In this document: one piece after another, positions 28,287-35,065 of the stretch
Numbering within the stretch: position 1 is the first letter of the stretch
Layout: each line of letters starts with the position of its first letter
Program-made: the position numbers and the translations under genes
The notes under the pieces: model-generated
Told to the model about the DNA's origin: nothing
Seen by the model: the letters and a program-made list of their open reading frames with translations, nothing else
Databases searched by the model: none
DNA from: an uncultured Clostridia bacterium
GTDB taxonomy: Bacteria > Bacillota > Clostridia > Oscillospirales > Acutalibacteraceae
Reading direction: 5' to 3'
Length of the DNA: 64,000 bases
NCBI GenBank assembly: GCA_947625485.1
Contig: CANQOP010000002.1
Coordinates: 81,269 to 145,268, forward strand

Positions 28287-28452
28287 AGCTACCTCAATAA
28301 ATGTCTTTATTGAAAAATTTTGAAAAAATCAACAAAGTATTTCGGTTAAATAAAATATTCTTAGCAAAATATTTTGCAGTACGATTTGTTTCCATACTAT
28401 TATACACCACCTTGTCAAAAAATAATAGAGCAAAATGAAAGGTGGTGAACAA

Positions 28453-29466
28453 ATGGCAAAAAATGTATCCAAAAAAAAATTAAAACTAATTTCTGTGGTG
28501 CTTGTTTTTATTTTCTTCTTATTTACAGCAATAATTCCCGCACAAGCTAAAACTGATAAGGTAATTATTGGCGGTGAATCCTTCGGTCTTAAACTTTATT
28601 GCAGGGGCGTAATGGTAACGCGGCTTGAAAGCTTTGAATGCGGAAATGCTTATGTATGCCCCGCGAAAAAGGCTGGAGTAGAAAAGGGAGATATAATTAC
28701 AAGCATAAACAACACAAAAGTAAAGAGCAACGAACAGGTAAACAACATTATCAAAAATTGCGAAGGCAATAAGCTCAGGCTAAGTATATTAAGAAACGAA
28801 GGTAAGCTTAATATCGAAATAATTCCTGAGCTTAATGATCAAGGTGAGTATTACGCAGGAATGTGGGTGCGCGACAGCTGCGCAGGAATCGGCACAATAA
28901 GCTACTACGACGCAGAAACCAAAACCTACGGAGCACTAGGTCACGGAATCTGTGATGTAGATACAGGAAGTCTGATGACTACGGACAGCGGCGAAATATT
29001 GAGCGCGTCTATTACAAGCATTACAAAGTCGAAAGATAACAGTATAGGAACACTCAACGGCTATTTTACCGACGACAGTATAGGCACAATAACCGACAAC
29101 ACACCTCTCGGTATTCACGGAAAATTAAATGCAATTCCTGAAAGCGGAAAAATGTATGACGTCGCCGAAAGCAATGAACTCAGAACCGGAAAAGCATATA
29201 TGTACTCAACTCTTGACGGTACAACACCCCAAAAATTTGAAGTAGAAATTATAAGTATATGCAATAACAACAGTAACACAAACAGAAATTTTATAATTAA
29301 GGTAACAGACAAAAACCTTCTTGAAAAAACAGGAGGTATTGTTCAAGGTATGAGCGGCAGTCCTATAGTACAAAACGAAAAGTTTGTGGGTGCTTTGACT
29401 CACGTCTTTCTGGAAAATTGTACCGAGGGCTACGGAATACTCGCCGAAAATATAATTTCAGACTAA
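28453..29466 (+). CDS. spoIVB: SpoIVB peptidase (S55)
   Basis: Signal/TM N-terminus, PDZ-like region, GALGHGICDVDTG and GMSGSPIVQNEKFVGALTHVF. Start ATG 28453 after AAAGGTGG. Confidence 0.94.
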   Translation: MAKNVSKKKLKLISVVLVFIFFLFTAIIPAQAKTDKVIIGGESFGLKLYCRGVMVTRLESFECGNAYVCPAKKAGVEKGDIITSINNTKVKSNEQVNNIIKNCEGNKLRLSILRNEGKLNIEIIPELNDQGEYYAGMWVRDSCAGIGTISYYDAETKTYGALGHGICDVDTGSLMTTDSGEILSASITSITKSKDNSIGTLNGYFTDDSIGTITDNTPLGIHGKLNAIPESGKMYDVAESNELRTGKAYMYSTLDGTTPQKFEVEIISICNNNSNTNRNFIIKVTDKNLLEKTGGIVQGMSGSPIVQNEKFVGALTHVFLENCTEGYGILAENIISD

Positions 29467-29471
29467 ATTTG

Positions 29472-29491
29472 CCCTACCGACTTCGGTAGGG
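29472..29491 (+). terminator. Short hairpin after spoIVB
   Basis: CCCTACCG-ACTT-CGGTAGGG followed by a weak T-rich stretch. Confidence 0.5.
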
Positions 29492-29628
29492 TTACATACT
29501 TCTGCAAATAAAGTCGATATTTTGTGTCGTATATTAATGCAATATACAATATATTGTGGTAATTTTTAGAAAAATGAAAACACAAAAAAATATTTTAATT
29601 AAAATTTAAAAAACTTTTTTGGAAACTA

Positions 29629-29657
29629 TTGCCAATTTTACCACTTTATGGTAAAAT
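29629..29657 (+). promoter_or_regulatory. Putative sigma-A promoter of spo0A with overlapping palindrome
   Basis: TTGCCA-17 nt-TAAAAT; perfect 9-bp inverted repeat ATTTTACCA-CTTTA-TGGTAAAAT at 29635-29657 covers spacer and -10. Confidence 0.7.
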
Positions 29658-29690
29658 ATTTTCACAAATTAATCTTATGGAGGAATACAA

Positions 29691-30458
29691 ATGAACGAAG
29701 CAATAAAACTGTTGATAACAGAAGATGCGTCAGGATTCAGCACAGATGACCTTAAAATATTCGACAGTTATAATATTGAACCTGAGTTTTGCAACAAGGA
29801 CGGCGAAGAACTGCTGCTCAAAATCTCAAATCAGAACCCCGACGTAGTACTGATGGATTTATTTATGACGAGGCTTGACTCACTCGGCGTTATGCGCTCA
29901 ATCAAGAAAAACGGCATAAAAGAACCTACTATAATTGTAACGGCGTCGTTTAACAGTCCTGCTCTTGAGCGTGAGATTATGAGCAACGGGGCAAGTTATT
30001 ACGCATTAAAGCCCTACAACATCACATCAATATGCGAGGATATTGTCTCTCTTGTACGCAAGGGAAAATCGGGAGGCAATACATATAACCCTTATAACAG
30101 TATTGGTATCGAAGTAAGAGTTACTGAAATTTTGCACGAAATCGGCGTTCCTGCTCATATAAAGGGTTATAACTATCTGAGAGACTCTATTATTATGTCT
30201 ATAGAAAAGCCGGATATTATAAACGCGGTTACAAAACAACTCTACCCTAACGTTGCAAAGAAATACGAAACAACTTCGTCGCGTGTTGAGAGAGCAATTA
30301 GACACGCCATTGAGGTCGCGTGGGATCGCGGCGACGTAGATGTGCTCAATTCTTACTTCGGTTATACTATTCACAACGGTCGCGGTAAGCCGACAAACAG
30401 CGAGTTTATCGCAATGATTTCCGACAAACTGAGATTACAGCTTAGAAACGCAAGCTAA
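29691..30458 (+). CDS. spo0A: Sporulation response regulator Spo0A
   Basis: Receiver ([10 protein letters not shown]) and Spo0A C-terminal domain ([21 protein letters not shown]). Confidence 0.97.
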
Positions 30459-30496: not shown

Positions 30497-30558
30497 ATTG
30501 ACTATTTTTTCCTGTTATGTTAAAATTTTGTTAGCTAATACTAACCAAGGTGGTTGTT

Positions 30559-33033
30559 ATGAAGGAACAAAAATTCAAAATAACCGGGATGACATGCTCC
30601 GCCTGTCAGATGCACGTTGAAAACGCTGTTAAAAAACTCAACGGAATAGAGTCAGCAAACGTCAATCTCCTCGCGAATACAATGGACGTCATCTTTGACG
30701 AAAGCAAACTCAATACAAAGGATATAATAAACGCCGTGAAAGCCGCAGGCTACGGAGCGAAGGAGTTTTCGCGTGAAGCCGAAAGTTATGATGAACCTGC
30801 GAATACTGCTAAGAAACAGCTAATATGGTCAGTTATTTTTCTCATTCCTCTTATGATTGTTGCTATGGGGCATATGATTGGTCTGCACATAGAACTGCTG
30901 GAGAATATGACGGTTCTGGGTATTTGTCAGCTTGTTTTTTTAATTCCTATCATCATACTGAACCGAAAATACTTTATAAACGGTTTTAAATCGCTTTTTA
31001 AGCTCAATCCCAATATGGACGCGCTTATTGCGCTGGGAGCGGGAATTTCTGTTCTCTACAGCCTATACAATTTTATTATTGCCGCGATAAATCAAATGTC
31101 TGTAATGCACGCTATGCATATGGGCGTTCACTACTACTTTGAGTCGGCGGGAATGATACTCACATTTATTTCTATAGGTAAATTTCTCGAAAGCAAGAGC
31201 AAGAGTAAAACTTCGTCCGCTATCAGTAACCTCGTGAAACTAACACCGAAAACCGCTATTATTGAAAAAGACGGAATTGAAGTAGAGACAGACACTAACA
31301 AAATCGTTGCAGGCGACACAGTTATATGCAAAAACGGTATGAGCATTCCTGTGGACGGGCGTATCATTGACGGAAATTGCAGTATTGACGAGTCGGCAAT
31401 CACGGGTGAAAGTATTCCCGTTGATAAGCATAACGGCGATAATGTAACGGGCGGCACGGTTATTACCTCGGGATATATTAAAATAGAAGCGGTTAATACA
31501 GGCGACGACACCACTCTGTCAAAAATTATAAAGCTCGTCGAAAACGCTACCTCGTCCAAAGCTCCTATTGCAAGAATTGCAGACAAGGTTGCGTCCGTGT
31601 TTGTCCCTGCTGTGATAGGTATTGCCGTTCTGACAACCATTATATGGCTTATTGTTGGGGCGGATGTCGGTAAGGCTATCTCCTTCGGAATAGCCGTTCT
31701 TGTTATCTCCTGTCCCTGCGCTCTCGGTCTAGCAACTCCTACAGCGATTATGGTAGGCACGGGCAAAGCGGCGCAGTACGGAATTCTTATTAAGTCCGCT
31801 TTGGCACTTGAAACTGCCAACAAGGTAAAAACGGTTGTGCTCGATAAAACGGGAACAATAACAAAGGGTACTCCGCAGGTCACGGACGTCCTCCCCTATA
31901 CTGACGAAAATGAGCTGCTCTCAATCGCATATTCAATTGAGAATAACTCAGAACACCCACTCGCCAAAGCCGTGGTAGACTTTGCAAAAAGCAAAAGCAT
32001 TGAACTTTTAAAGGCAGAAAATTTTAAGTCCTATACGGGCTCGGGTATTTCCGCGGAAATAAACCATACTGTTTATTACTCGGGTAACTATAGCTTTATT
32101 GAAAGTCTTGGAATAAATTTTGATAATAATTCTTTATCAGAATTATATAGCGACGGTAAAACTCCGTTAATTTTTGCTGATAATGACAAAGTAATAGGAG
32201 TTATCGCTGTAGCTGATACAATAAAAGAGACGAGCAAAAAGGCGATTTCCGCCCTTAACGGTATTGGTGTTGAAACTGTTATGCTCACTGGCGATAACAG
32301 ACAAACCGCAAATTCTATCCAAAGGCTTGCCGGCATAAAGACTGCTTATGCTCAGGTTCTGCCGCAGCAAAAAGAACAGGTTGTACGTCAATATAAAAAT
32401 GATGGCGCGGTTGCTATGGTAGGAGACGGAGTAAACGACTCCCCTGCCCTTGTGACGGCTGACGTTGGAATCGCAATCGGCGCCGGAACGGATATTGCTA
32501 TCGACTCCGCCGATATTGTCCTTATGAAAAGCGATCCGCTTGATATTGTTACGACTATCCAGCTCAGCCGCGCGGTACTGAAAAATATTAAAGAAAACTT
32601 ATTCTGGGCGTTTATTTACAATATTATCTGTATTCCGCTCGCCGCGGGAGCTTTCTACCACCTGCTCGGGTGGCAGCTCGAGCCGATGTTTGGCACAATC
32701 GCAATGAGCTTAAGCTCAATCTGCGTAGTATCCAACGCCCTTAGGCTGAGACGGTTCAAGCCGAAATCGGTAACATCCTATGCAAAACAAATAACAGACT
32801 ATGAGACTATTGTACTTGAAAAGGAGGTGTTTAATATGAAAACTGTTTCAATAGAAGGTATGATGTGCGAGCACTGCAAGTCAAGCGTAAAGTCCGCACT
32901 TGAAGCACTGACAGATAAACCCGTCAGCGTTGACCTTGAAAAAAATAATGCGACGATTGACGACTCGGTTGCGGACGACGCAATCCGTAAAGCAATTTCG
33001 GACGCAGGATATAAAGTAACGGAGATTCAATAA
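30559..33033 (+). CDS. copA: Copper-translocating P-type ATPase with N- and C-terminal HMA domains
   Basis: GMTCSACQ, SCPCALGLATP, DKTGTITKG, GDGVNDSPAL, C-terminal GMMCEHCK. Confidence 0.95.
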   Translation: MKEQKFKITGMTCSACQMHVENAVKKLNGIESANVNLLANTMDVIFDESKLNTKDIINAVKAAGYGAKEFSREAESYDEPANTAKKQLIWSVIFLIPLMIVAMGHMIGLHIELLENMTVLGICQLVFLIPIIILNRKYFINGFKSLFKLNPNMDALIALGAGISVLYSLYNFIIAAINQMSVMHAMHMGVHYYFESAGMILTFISIGKFLESKSKSKTSSAISNLVKLTPKTAIIEKDGIEVETDTNKIVAGDTVICKNGMSIPVDGRIIDGNCSIDESAITGESIPVDKHNGDNVTGGTVITSGYIKIEAVNTGDDTTLSKIIKLVENATSSKAPIARIADKVASVFVPAVIGIAVLTTIIWLIVGADVGKAISFGIAVLVISCPCALGLATPTAIMVGTGKAAQYGILIKSALALETANKVKTVVLDKTGTITKGTPQVTDVLPYTDENELLSIAYSIENNSEHPLAKAVVDFAKSKSIELLKAENFKSYTGSGISAEINHTVYYSGNYSFIESLGINFDNNSLSELYSDGKTPLIFADNDKVIGVIAVADTIKETSKKAISALNGIGVETVMLTGDNRQTANSIQRLAGIKTAYAQVLPQQKEQVVRQYKNDGAVAMVGDGVNDSPALVTADVGIAIGAGTDIAIDSADIVLMKSDPLDIVTTIQLSRAVLKNIKENLFWAFIYNIICIPLAAGAFYHLLGWQLEPMFGTIAMSLSSICVVSNALRLRRFKPKSVTSYAKQITDYETIVLEKEVFNMKTVSIEGMMCEHCKSSVKSALEALTDKPVSVDLEKNNATIDDSVADDAIRKAISDAGYKVTEIQ
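32836..33033 (+). CDS. Possible internally initiated CopZ-like HMA protein (in-frame within copA)
   Basis: AAGGAGGTG at 32821-32829, 8 nt from GGAGG to ATG 32836; MKTVSIEGMMCEHCKSSVKSALEAL...; same frame and stop as copA. Confidence 0.5.
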   Translation: MKTVSIEGMMCEHCKSSVKSALEALTDKPVSVDLEKNNATIDDSVADDAIRKAISDAGYKVTEIQ

Positions 33034-33111: not shown

Positions 33112-33146
33112 AAAGGGCAGTTCACTTAAAACTGCCCTTTTTCTTT
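33112..33146 (+). terminator. Intrinsic terminator after copA
   Basis: AAAGGGCAGTT-CACTTAA-AACTGCCCTTT-TTCTTTAT. Confidence 0.9.
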
Positions 33147-33182: not shown

Positions 33183-34997
33183 TTAATTTTCTTTTTTTAT
33201 GTCATTTAGTCCCCCATATGGTAATTGTTTAATTTTATCAGTATTTTTATCAAAAACACTGTTGTCTATATCTTCATTGATCCTATATTCATATGGCTGG
33301 ATTCGGCGTATGAGCTCTCCGTTTTTACCATACGCGTCCAGAGATAAAAAGATACCGTTCTCCTTATCGACCAACGCTTTGTAGTTATATATATGATTAA
33401 AGCCGTTTGACGTCCCCTTTATAAAAAAGCATTCTCTGTCGAATTTATAAACTATCTTCTCAACCGTCCAATTATCAATATACGTCATTTTATGTGATAT
33501 AGCAAACATCTCGGACTTATACTGTGACGGAGCGCTGTATAAATTAAATATATCACATCTGCTGTACTGCACATACTCTTCTGCATCTTTATCGTACTTA
33601 TATCTTCTCATCGGGTCGATAAATTTAACAAAATCAAGTTTCTGATGCTCTCTGCCAAATTTTGTTATTTGAACAAATTCGTTTTCGTAGAGCTTTAAAA
33701 GCAATGTTTTATATCTTTGTTTCTGCGCTTTTGCTAAAATTTTCTTATCGCCTTTACTTTTTTTGTTATCTGCTCGGTCTCCGAAATCACAGTTGTAGTG
33801 CATTTCATTTTTCAGGAGAGTGTATGAGAACGGCGTTCCGTTACTGTCGAAGATAATTTCCTTGGCTCTGTGCTTGTCCGTATCAGCGCAGTATGTAACA
33901 TATTCTCCCTCTTCCAAACCTGATGAAATATCATATAAATAGAATGTTGACTGAATAGTTTTAAAGTAGTCGAGGGAGTTGTAAATTCGGTCAAGTATAT
34001 ACATTTTATTTGATTTTGAGTTTAAGTCTTTATCGGGATTAAAAGATACCTCTTTCCTCTTATCTTTATCATAAAATCCATTGGAATAAAACATTTTCAA
34101 AGCGTCAATCTTCTGAATCGTTTCCGAAGCTTTATTTGCCGTCGTATGTTTCACCGCTACGGTATGGTTATTCTTAGTATTTTGCGTTAGAAAATAAGTA
34201 ATTCCGCCCGCCGCTACGACAAACGCACTGCTTACCGCGACTGTTTTTACGAGCGCTGCGTACTTAACCGCGTTTACTGCCGCCTTAGAGGCAGTAACAA
34301 TACCTTTTTCGACCTGAGTTTTAAGAGCAAATACAGATTTTTCGGAGATTGTAAATTTACTCTTTTCCGCGTCATTTATAAGCGTGTACGATATATATGA
34401 CAGCGGCGCCGCCCCTCCAAGAAGATTTGCTTTCCCGTACTTTTCGAGTTCATTTTTAATCGCTTTGCGCGCTGTGTATAAGCGGCTTTTGACCGTTCCT
34501 TCCTTTACTTCAAGTACAGATGAGATTTCCTTAACGCTTAGCTGCTGATAATAGTACATAAGTACACATTCTCTTTGAATTTCGGGGAGCTTGCTGACAG
34601 CGTTACGAAGTATTTCGCACACTTCCTCAGTTTCAACACATTTCTCCGGGATAATCTGAATATCATTTTCTTCAAATTTATCGGTCAATTCTTCATTCTC
34701 ACGTTTATCAGCAAGTATATTTCTACAGTAATTTGCTGTTACGGTCTTAATCCATCCGAGAAAAGCCTTCGGATATTCAACAGACCTGAGATTGCTTAAA
34801 ACCTTAACATAAATATCTTGAACCGCATCTTTAGCCTTTTCTTCATTACAAAGCATACTCAGGCAGTAATAATACACATAATTTCCCGTTTCGCTGACAA
34901 TGTATTCTAGTGCTTTTTTGTCACCATTCTGAGCCTTTAAAACATTTCTTGCAAGTTTATTGTTGTTAATTTTAAATTGAGGCGTTTTGTCTCTCAT
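33183..34997 (-). CDS. ECF-type sigma-70 factor fused to TM segment and long C-terminal extracytoplasmic domain
   Basis: Sigma region 2 (AKDAVQDIYVKVLSNLRSVEYPKAFLGWIKTVTANYCRNIL), region 4 (LPEIQRECVLMYYYQQLSVKEISSVLEVKEGTVKSRLYTARKAI), TM VKTVAVSSAFVVAAGGITYFL, then about 340 aa. Confidence 0.88.
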   Translation of the reverse strand: MRDKTPQFKINNNKLARNVLKAQNGDKKALEYIVSETGNYVYYYCLSMLCNEEKAKDAVQDIYVKVLSNLRSVEYPKAFLGWIKTVTANYCRNILADKRENEELTDKFEENDIQIIPEKCVETEEVCEILRNAVSKLPEIQRECVLMYYYQQLSVKEISSVLEVKEGTVKSRLYTARKAIKNELEKYGKANLLGGAAPLSYISYTLINDAEKSKFTISEKSVFALKTQVEKGIVTASKAAVNAVKYAALVKTVAVSSAFVVAAGGITYFLTQNTKNNHTVAVKHTTANKASETIQKIDALKMFYSNGFYDKDKRKEVSFNPDKDLNSKSNKMYILDRIYNSLDYFKTIQSTFYLYDISSGLEEGEYVTYCADTDKHRAKEIIFDSNGTPFSYTLLKNEMHYNCDFGDRADNKKSKGDKKILAKAQKQRYKTLLLKLYENEFVQITKFGREHQKLDFVKFIDPMRRYKYDKDAEEYVQYSRCDIFNLYSAPSQYKSEMFAISHKMTYIDNWTVEKIVYKFDRECFFIKGTSNGFNHIYNYKALVDKENGIFLSLDAYGKNGELIRRIQPYEYRINEDIDNSVFDKNTDKIKQLPYGGLNDIKKEN

Positions 34998-35036
34998 AAT
35001 GAACCTCCTTATACGCGTTCATATAAAAAGACAATA

Positions 35037-35065
35037 AAAATAATAAATGGTTCATTTAATGTCAA
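35037..35065 (-). promoter_or_regulatory. Putative sigma-A-like promoter for the sigma-fusion gene
   Basis: Minus strand TTGACA-17 nt-TATTTT abutting the purD terminator. Confidence 0.6.

Follow-up and report, generated by a model that had tools for sequence, protein, structure and literature searches.

RseB, the stress sensor of the E. coli sigma-E pathway, is known from Gram-negatives, where it guards this pathway as a protein in its own right. In the window, by which we mean the whole stretch of 64,000 nucleotides that was analysed, and which comes from a gut bacterium of the Ruminococcus type, one gene encodes an ECF sigma factor that continues into a membrane helix and a large C-terminal domain. 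Our results indicated that this protein probably both senses the envelope and switches genes, and we hold with fair confidence that it is a membrane-tethered, self-regulating and envelope-responsive ECF sigma factor carrying an RseB-like sensor in cis on the same polypeptide.

Architecture of the fusion gene and fold of its C-terminal domain

The gene (33183-34997, reverse strand) encodes 604 aa, and its ATG start is preceded by a good ribosome-binding site. Pfam placed ECF sigma region 2 at residues 35-99 (34701-34895, reverse strand; PF04542, Sigma70_r2, E 2.5e-7) and region 4 at residues 128-180 (34458-34616, reverse strand; PF08281, Sigma70_r4_2, 1.2e-16), both above cut-off, and the NCBIfam model TIGR02937 (sigma70-ECF) also matched the protein (4.5e-25). 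The Pfam and NCBIfam matches shown were to ECF families only, with no SigI-type or RsgI match. Sigma region 2 was found at 16 places in the genome, and the fusion gene was the only one of these lying within an ORF of more than 400 aa. Region 4 is followed by a predicted cytoplasmic linker of about 55 residues (191-244; 34266-34427, reverse strand), in which the alignments revealed a conserved PLSxISYSL segment directly after region 4. Pfam had no match in this linker, neither a recognisable anti-sigma domain in general nor a zinc-finger anti-sigma domain before the helix, and no FecR-type anti-sigma part was matched in the window protein. In the full-length AlphaFold2 model, residues 193-291, which cover the linker and the helix, had a pLDDT below 50, and we claim no contact between the sigma part and the linker. 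The single transmembrane helix (residues 245-268; 34194-34265, reverse strand) has a best 19-residue Kyte-Doolittle mean of 1.79, which is moderate rather than strong; it is preceded by a conserved Lys and has a small-residue pair near its end.

The gene is flanked by a convergent copper ATPase gene, with which it shares a two-way terminator-like hairpin found by a consensus scan (33112-33140), and by purD, which lies upstream on the same strand; thus, there is no adjacent anti-sigma gene. The earlier note, made from the letters of the DNA, had described ECF regions 2 and 4, one hydrophobic helix and the lack of a separate anti-sigma gene next door, and all three descriptions held.

Two further observations concern this neighbourhood. 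The copper ATPase ORF (30550-33033, forward strand) closes with a second heavy-metal-binding domain, for which there is a strong ribosome-binding site of its own (AAGGAGGTG) together with an in-frame ATG near 32836, and a free CopZ-like protein may therefore be made from inside this ORF. Also near the sigma gene, on the opposite strand, are two ORFs that by eye resemble a spoIVB/spo0A sporulation pair (28435-30458, forward strand).

To reveal the nature of the C-terminal domain (residues 287-597; 33207-34139, reverse strand), residues 276-604 were modelled with AlphaFold2 from 18 homologs. The model had a pLDDT of 87 and a pTM of 0.85, residues 12-322 of the modelled segment were mostly confident, and about 30 residues followed the last strand. 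In a Foldseek search of the PDB, the first ten matches were all to E. coli RseB or P. aeruginosa MucB (E 4e-8 to 7e-7, probability 1.00), and LolA, LprG and LprF proteins came after them. The TM-scores to RseB/MucB were modest (0.35-0.45) and the identity was about 10%, and these matches are therefore evidence of a fold class. Sequence profiles pointed in the same direction. Eight of the 18 close homologs matched Pfam MucB_RseB (best 1.7e-5) and four matched LolA_like; in a wider homolog set, the best MucB_RseB value was 3.9e-7, and LolA_like was found in 5 of 17 members. A profile of the wide alignment (A3) matched only MucB/RseB among PDB sequences, weakly (E 0.05-0.4), and the profile of the narrow alignment (A1) gave a chance match only. 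The window protein itself, at a stretch matching the N-domain of MucB_RseB (residues 536-583; 33249-33392, reverse strand), scored 17.1 bits against a cut-off of 22.3 (E 0.0087). The separate C-terminal domain of RseB had no Pfam match at E values up to 10 among the 18 members. These findings support an RseB/LolA-like fold for the modelled domain. The fused form shows what characterises an RseB-like module acting in cis. It is nonetheless no RseB, because it falls below the Pfam cut-off, lacks the second domain and is not a separate protein.

The side of the membrane on which this domain lies was suggested by its relatives. Free-standing proteins consisting of the domain carry a signal peptide, most of them with a lipoprotein Cys motif (L028, L071, L072, L074-L079 and others), and the signal peptides of the lipoproteins align with the transmembrane helix of the fused proteins. 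Because the hydrophobic helix stands at the same place as these signal peptides, an extracytoplasmic location of the fused domain is supported. The earlier note had proposed an extracytoplasmic domain resembling LolA/RseB folds. Its location agrees with the lipoprotein homologs, and its fold was borne out by the structure search, in which the model best matched RseB/MucB, and by the profile matches of homologs; as regards profiles, the proposal stood for the homologs and failed at the cut-off for the window protein itself.

Proposed release from the membrane and known systems

In the reading we favour, the sigma2-sigma4 module would be held at the membrane, on its cytoplasmic side, by the linker and one helix, and the outside domain would act as a sensor whose ligand is most likely lipidic or linked to envelope damage. 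A stimulus would make the extracytoplasmic part sensitive to a site-1 protease; cleavage of the helix by a site-2 protease of the RseP/RasP type would follow and free the sigma module, which would switch on a small regulon together with its own promoter. The PLSxISYSL segment is a candidate for keeping the sigma factor inactive before release. We infer proteolytic release, ligand and target genes by analogy only. In MucB, lipids are sensed by way of the cavity of this fold, which exposes MucA to cleavage (PMC7400510), and IutY, the characterised membrane-fused ECF sigma factor, becomes active when Prc and RseP cleave it (PMC8999054). A gene for an M50 site-2 protease of the RseP type was found in the same genome (E 5e-62), and no site-1 protease was identified. 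A third system sharpens the question of what follows release. In RsgI systems, ClpXP degrades the fragment once the membrane protease has freed it (PMC12203970), yet here the freed fragment would be the sigma factor itself. Such a step would destroy the fused sigma, and therefore either the step is absent or the signal would be a pulse. Counting against the favoured reading are the moderate hydrophobicity of the helix, a linker without a recognisable anti-sigma domain, the modest TM-scores, the missing RseB C-terminal domain and the lack of an identified site-1 protease.

The same facts leave some room for control without proteolysis, in which a ligand or partner protein would shift the conformation of the linker and the sigma factor would bind RNA polymerase while still membrane-bound. 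Such a scheme would need no site-1 protease, the conserved segment after region 4 could gate sigma4, and soluble ECF41-type extensions act by contact and not by cleavage (PMC8999054). However, IutY, a membrane fusion, is activated by cleavage (PMC8999054), access to the chromosome would be restricted for a membrane-bound sigma factor, and the site-2 protease gene is present. We therefore regard this alternative as unlikely, although it is the best surviving of those considered.

Membrane-fused ECF sigmas are not new in themselves, those already known including ECF52, ECF48, ECF53, ECF36 and ECF243 (PMC8999054). ECF52 (Streptomyces SCO4117) likewise joins an ECF sigma, a transmembrane helix and an extracytoplasmic domain in one chain, and proteolytic release has been proposed and autoregulation predicted for it (PMC5826349). 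It differs in having a zinc-finger anti-sigma domain on the cytoplasmic side, a wall region rich in proline and a domain that binds carbohydrate, none of which was found in the window protein, and in being confined to Actinobacteria (PMC5826349). IutY of Pseudomonas putida (ECF243) is similarly a sigma fused to a membrane anti-sigma and activated through RseP intramembrane proteolysis (PMC8999054), whereas it belongs to FecI/FecR-type iron signalling with an outer-membrane receptor and has no RseB-like domain. The type member of ECF262 is a Ruminococcus albus protein, listed with an extension of unknown mechanism (PMC8999054); it is also a Ruminococcus ECF sigma with a regulatory extension. 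The genus-wide family of membrane-fused sigmas described below may belong to this group.

The outside domain has its closest counterparts in E. coli RseB and P. aeruginosa MucB of the sigma-E and AlgU pathways, which share the LolA-like beta half-barrel, lie outside the cytoplasmic membrane and work with an ECF sigma; MucB uses its cavity to sense lipid and shields MucA from cleavage (PMC7400510). Unlike the window protein, they are separate soluble periplasmic proteins of Gram-negatives with a second C-terminal domain and a separate anti-sigma target, whereas the window fold sits covalently on the sigma polypeptide, without the second domain, in a Gram-positive lineage. Among Gram-positives, RsgI/SigI of Clostridium thermocellum offers a single-pass regulator with an outside sensor and site-1 plus site-2 proteolysis (PMC12203970), and RsiV and RsiP of Bacillus are likewise single-pass regulators with outside sensor domains and site-1/site-2 release. 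In all three, however, sigma and anti-sigma are separate proteins and the outside domains are different. In a literature that was thin on subscription journals and did not contain the 2021 ECF classification, we came across no account of a sigma factor that carries an RseB-like domain. Thus, the ECF-transmembrane fusion is known, and the RseB-like module on the sigma polypeptide appears to be the new part.

The domain in other regulators and other sigma lineages

In four genomes, the same domain forms the C-terminus of single-pass proteins translationally coupled to separate ECF sigma genes (L114, L117, L121 and L122); in each case, the single-pass gene lies immediately downstream of the sigma gene, with stop and start overlapping or abutting. 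The recurrence of the domain in operons with ECF sigma genes is the strongest evidence for its place in sigma control, and from it we infer such a role for the fused domain, in agreement with the tie between the C-terminal half and sigma control that had been proposed for this gene.

One of the four operons (L114, 4286-6680) lies in the window's own genome, which thus has a second, split ECF sigma with a single-pass anti-sigma-like protein ending in the same domain. This single-pass protein has a weak match to DUF4179 (0.0013), a family also mentioned in work on RsiV and RsiP, two anti-sigma factors of Bacillus.

A different regulatory setting was found in three further loci, in which the domain is a lipoprotein encoded 16-27 bases downstream of genes for a BlaI-type repressor (1e-18 to 4e-20) and an M56 peptidase of the BlaR1 type (8e-41 to 6e-46), the three genes forming an operon (L075, 5124-7906; L076, 6659-9357; L077, 8082-10894). 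Pfam found no penicillin-sensor domain in these peptidases, which have an acidic C-terminal tail ending in VFQWD; because of these two features, the RseB-like lipoprotein may be the sensor of the peptidase.

There are also many unlinked lipoproteins or secreted proteins with the domain that have no regulator alongside, several of them adjoining pyruvate kinase and shikimate kinase genes, and the fold is common to the carriers LolA and LprG. LolA-fold proteins that carry lipids without any regulation, and the many free lipoprotein homologs, count against the favoured reading. They would fit a protein in which the domain is merely an anchored surface lipid carrier or cargo binder and the sigma factor is controlled otherwise, for example by autoregulated expression alone. 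This is improbable in our view, because the domain occurs in four translationally coupled operons with ECF sigma genes and in three with BlaI and M56 genes, and because the fusion has been retained in eight species under purifying selection. The domain is not widespread, being found in 14 of 398 genomes of the family and more rarely in the class (5 of 391).

The sigma part with its helix has a wider distribution than the fusion. Fourteen other ECF sigma proteins of the genus have a transmembrane helix and then different or unnamed C-terminal regions, none of which Pfam named confidently; we kept separate five long sigmas that belong to other families within the order, as no transmembrane helix clearly follows their sigma part. 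In most of the 14, the helix lies about 55-90 residues after region 4, at a position conserved with that of the window protein, and the Lys before it and the small-residue pair near its end are also found. One clade of the sigma tree (support 100/100) comprised all eight RseB-like fusions together with one other protein, L027. The sigma part of L027 is about 49% identical to that of the window protein and its C-terminal region is different, which counts against the favoured reading and indicates that the RseB-like domain is not essential to this sigma lineage. In L027 (7492-9012), the place of the domain is taken by a Pro/Thr-rich stretch and an end that by eye resembles a starch-binding (CBM26-type) module. 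The four split-operon sigmas were scattered in the tree, in which branches are long and many forks weak. Since the split sigmas are scattered and L027 falls within the fused clade, the domain appears to have joined several sigma lineages and to have been exchanged within one of them. A derivation of the fusion from the split sigma/anti-sigma operons found here is unsupported, as their sigmas lie away from the fused clade in this long-branched tree.

We tentatively suggest a broader reading, which may hold but which we do not put as high as the reading of the single protein. The RseB-like fold would be a portable envelope sensor of Gram-positive gut bacteria with three transcription outputs: in cis on a tethered ECF sigma, in trans on a single-pass anti-sigma-like protein, and as a lipoprotein beside a BlaI/BlaR1-like pair. 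The fused form would then combine the functions of RpoE, RseA and RseB in one self-regulating protein, its outside domain having been swapped between lineages. If the RseB fold does serve on a sigma polypeptide and on other one-pass Gram-positive regulators, envelope-sensing modules move between signalling systems. In addition, the fused form would allow sensing, tethering and activation to be tested together in a minimal system of one gene, the promoter of which is predicted.

Conservation and a promoter-like element

The fusion was found in 8 of 161 species genomes of the genus, namely that of the window species and seven more (G030, G065, G087, G161, G170, G173 and G177). The sigma parts of these seven are 55-59% identical to that of the window protein, and the C-terminal domains 29-35%. 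Pairwise dN/dS values were 0.09-0.14 for the sigma part, 0.06-0.24 for the linker and helix and 0.08-0.26 for the domain, suggesting that all parts of the fusion have evolved under purifying selection. Because seven further species carry the same gene with such values, it is neither a chance ORF nor a frameshift artefact. The sequences are MAG-derived and the fusion occurs in few genomes of the genus, as might be expected if the fused sigma were constitutively inactive or decaying or the fusion were an assembly artefact, but independent assemblies agree, every part is constrained, the promoter is conserved and the sole apparent break is a gap of N, which makes this very improbable.

A search of genome contigs with the full-length protein gave no match, and a search with the domain alignment matched named records, mostly uncultured Ruminococcus or Clostridia MAGs. 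The record with the apparent gene break, which proved to be an assembly gap of N, is L183 (DEKL01000109.1). It is titled Alphaproteobacteria bacterium UBA2723 and carries a Ruminococcus-type fused gene, and its MAG label therefore looks wrong.

Upstream of the window gene is a putative autoregulatory ECF-type promoter element, TGAACC-N15-TGTCT (35029-35054, reverse strand), the only match in the window, where 0.04 would be expected. The pattern TGAACC-N15/16-TGTCT was present in all eight fused genes, 54-174 bases upstream of the start, in upstream sequence that is otherwise divergent, and in none of about 470 other upstream regions of the loci. The scan covered 480 ORFs and gave 12 matches, all at fused genes, some of them in repeat records; in four genomes (G065, G161, G173 and G177), the element was the only match genome-wide. 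It resembles the -35 (GAAC) and -10 (GTC) elements of ECF promoters. An ECF-like element upstream of all eight fused genes and none of the others suggests positive autoregulation of the fused sigma genes. The earlier note had anticipated neither this signature nor the BlaI/BlaR1-like operons with the domain, nor the genus-wide family of sigma-transmembrane fusions with exchangeable C-terminal regions. In the window, a sigma-A-like promoter (TTGACA-N17-TATTTT) overlaps the element, and basal expression may therefore differ there. We claim no wider regulon from the pattern, the match frequency of which was little above that of a reversed control in most genomes. In two loci (L069 and L070), the stretch from the promoter-like element to the start of the sigma gene holds a short open frame, some 40 codons long, that seemingly overlaps this start; in a third (L026), the short upstream open frame looks disrupted.
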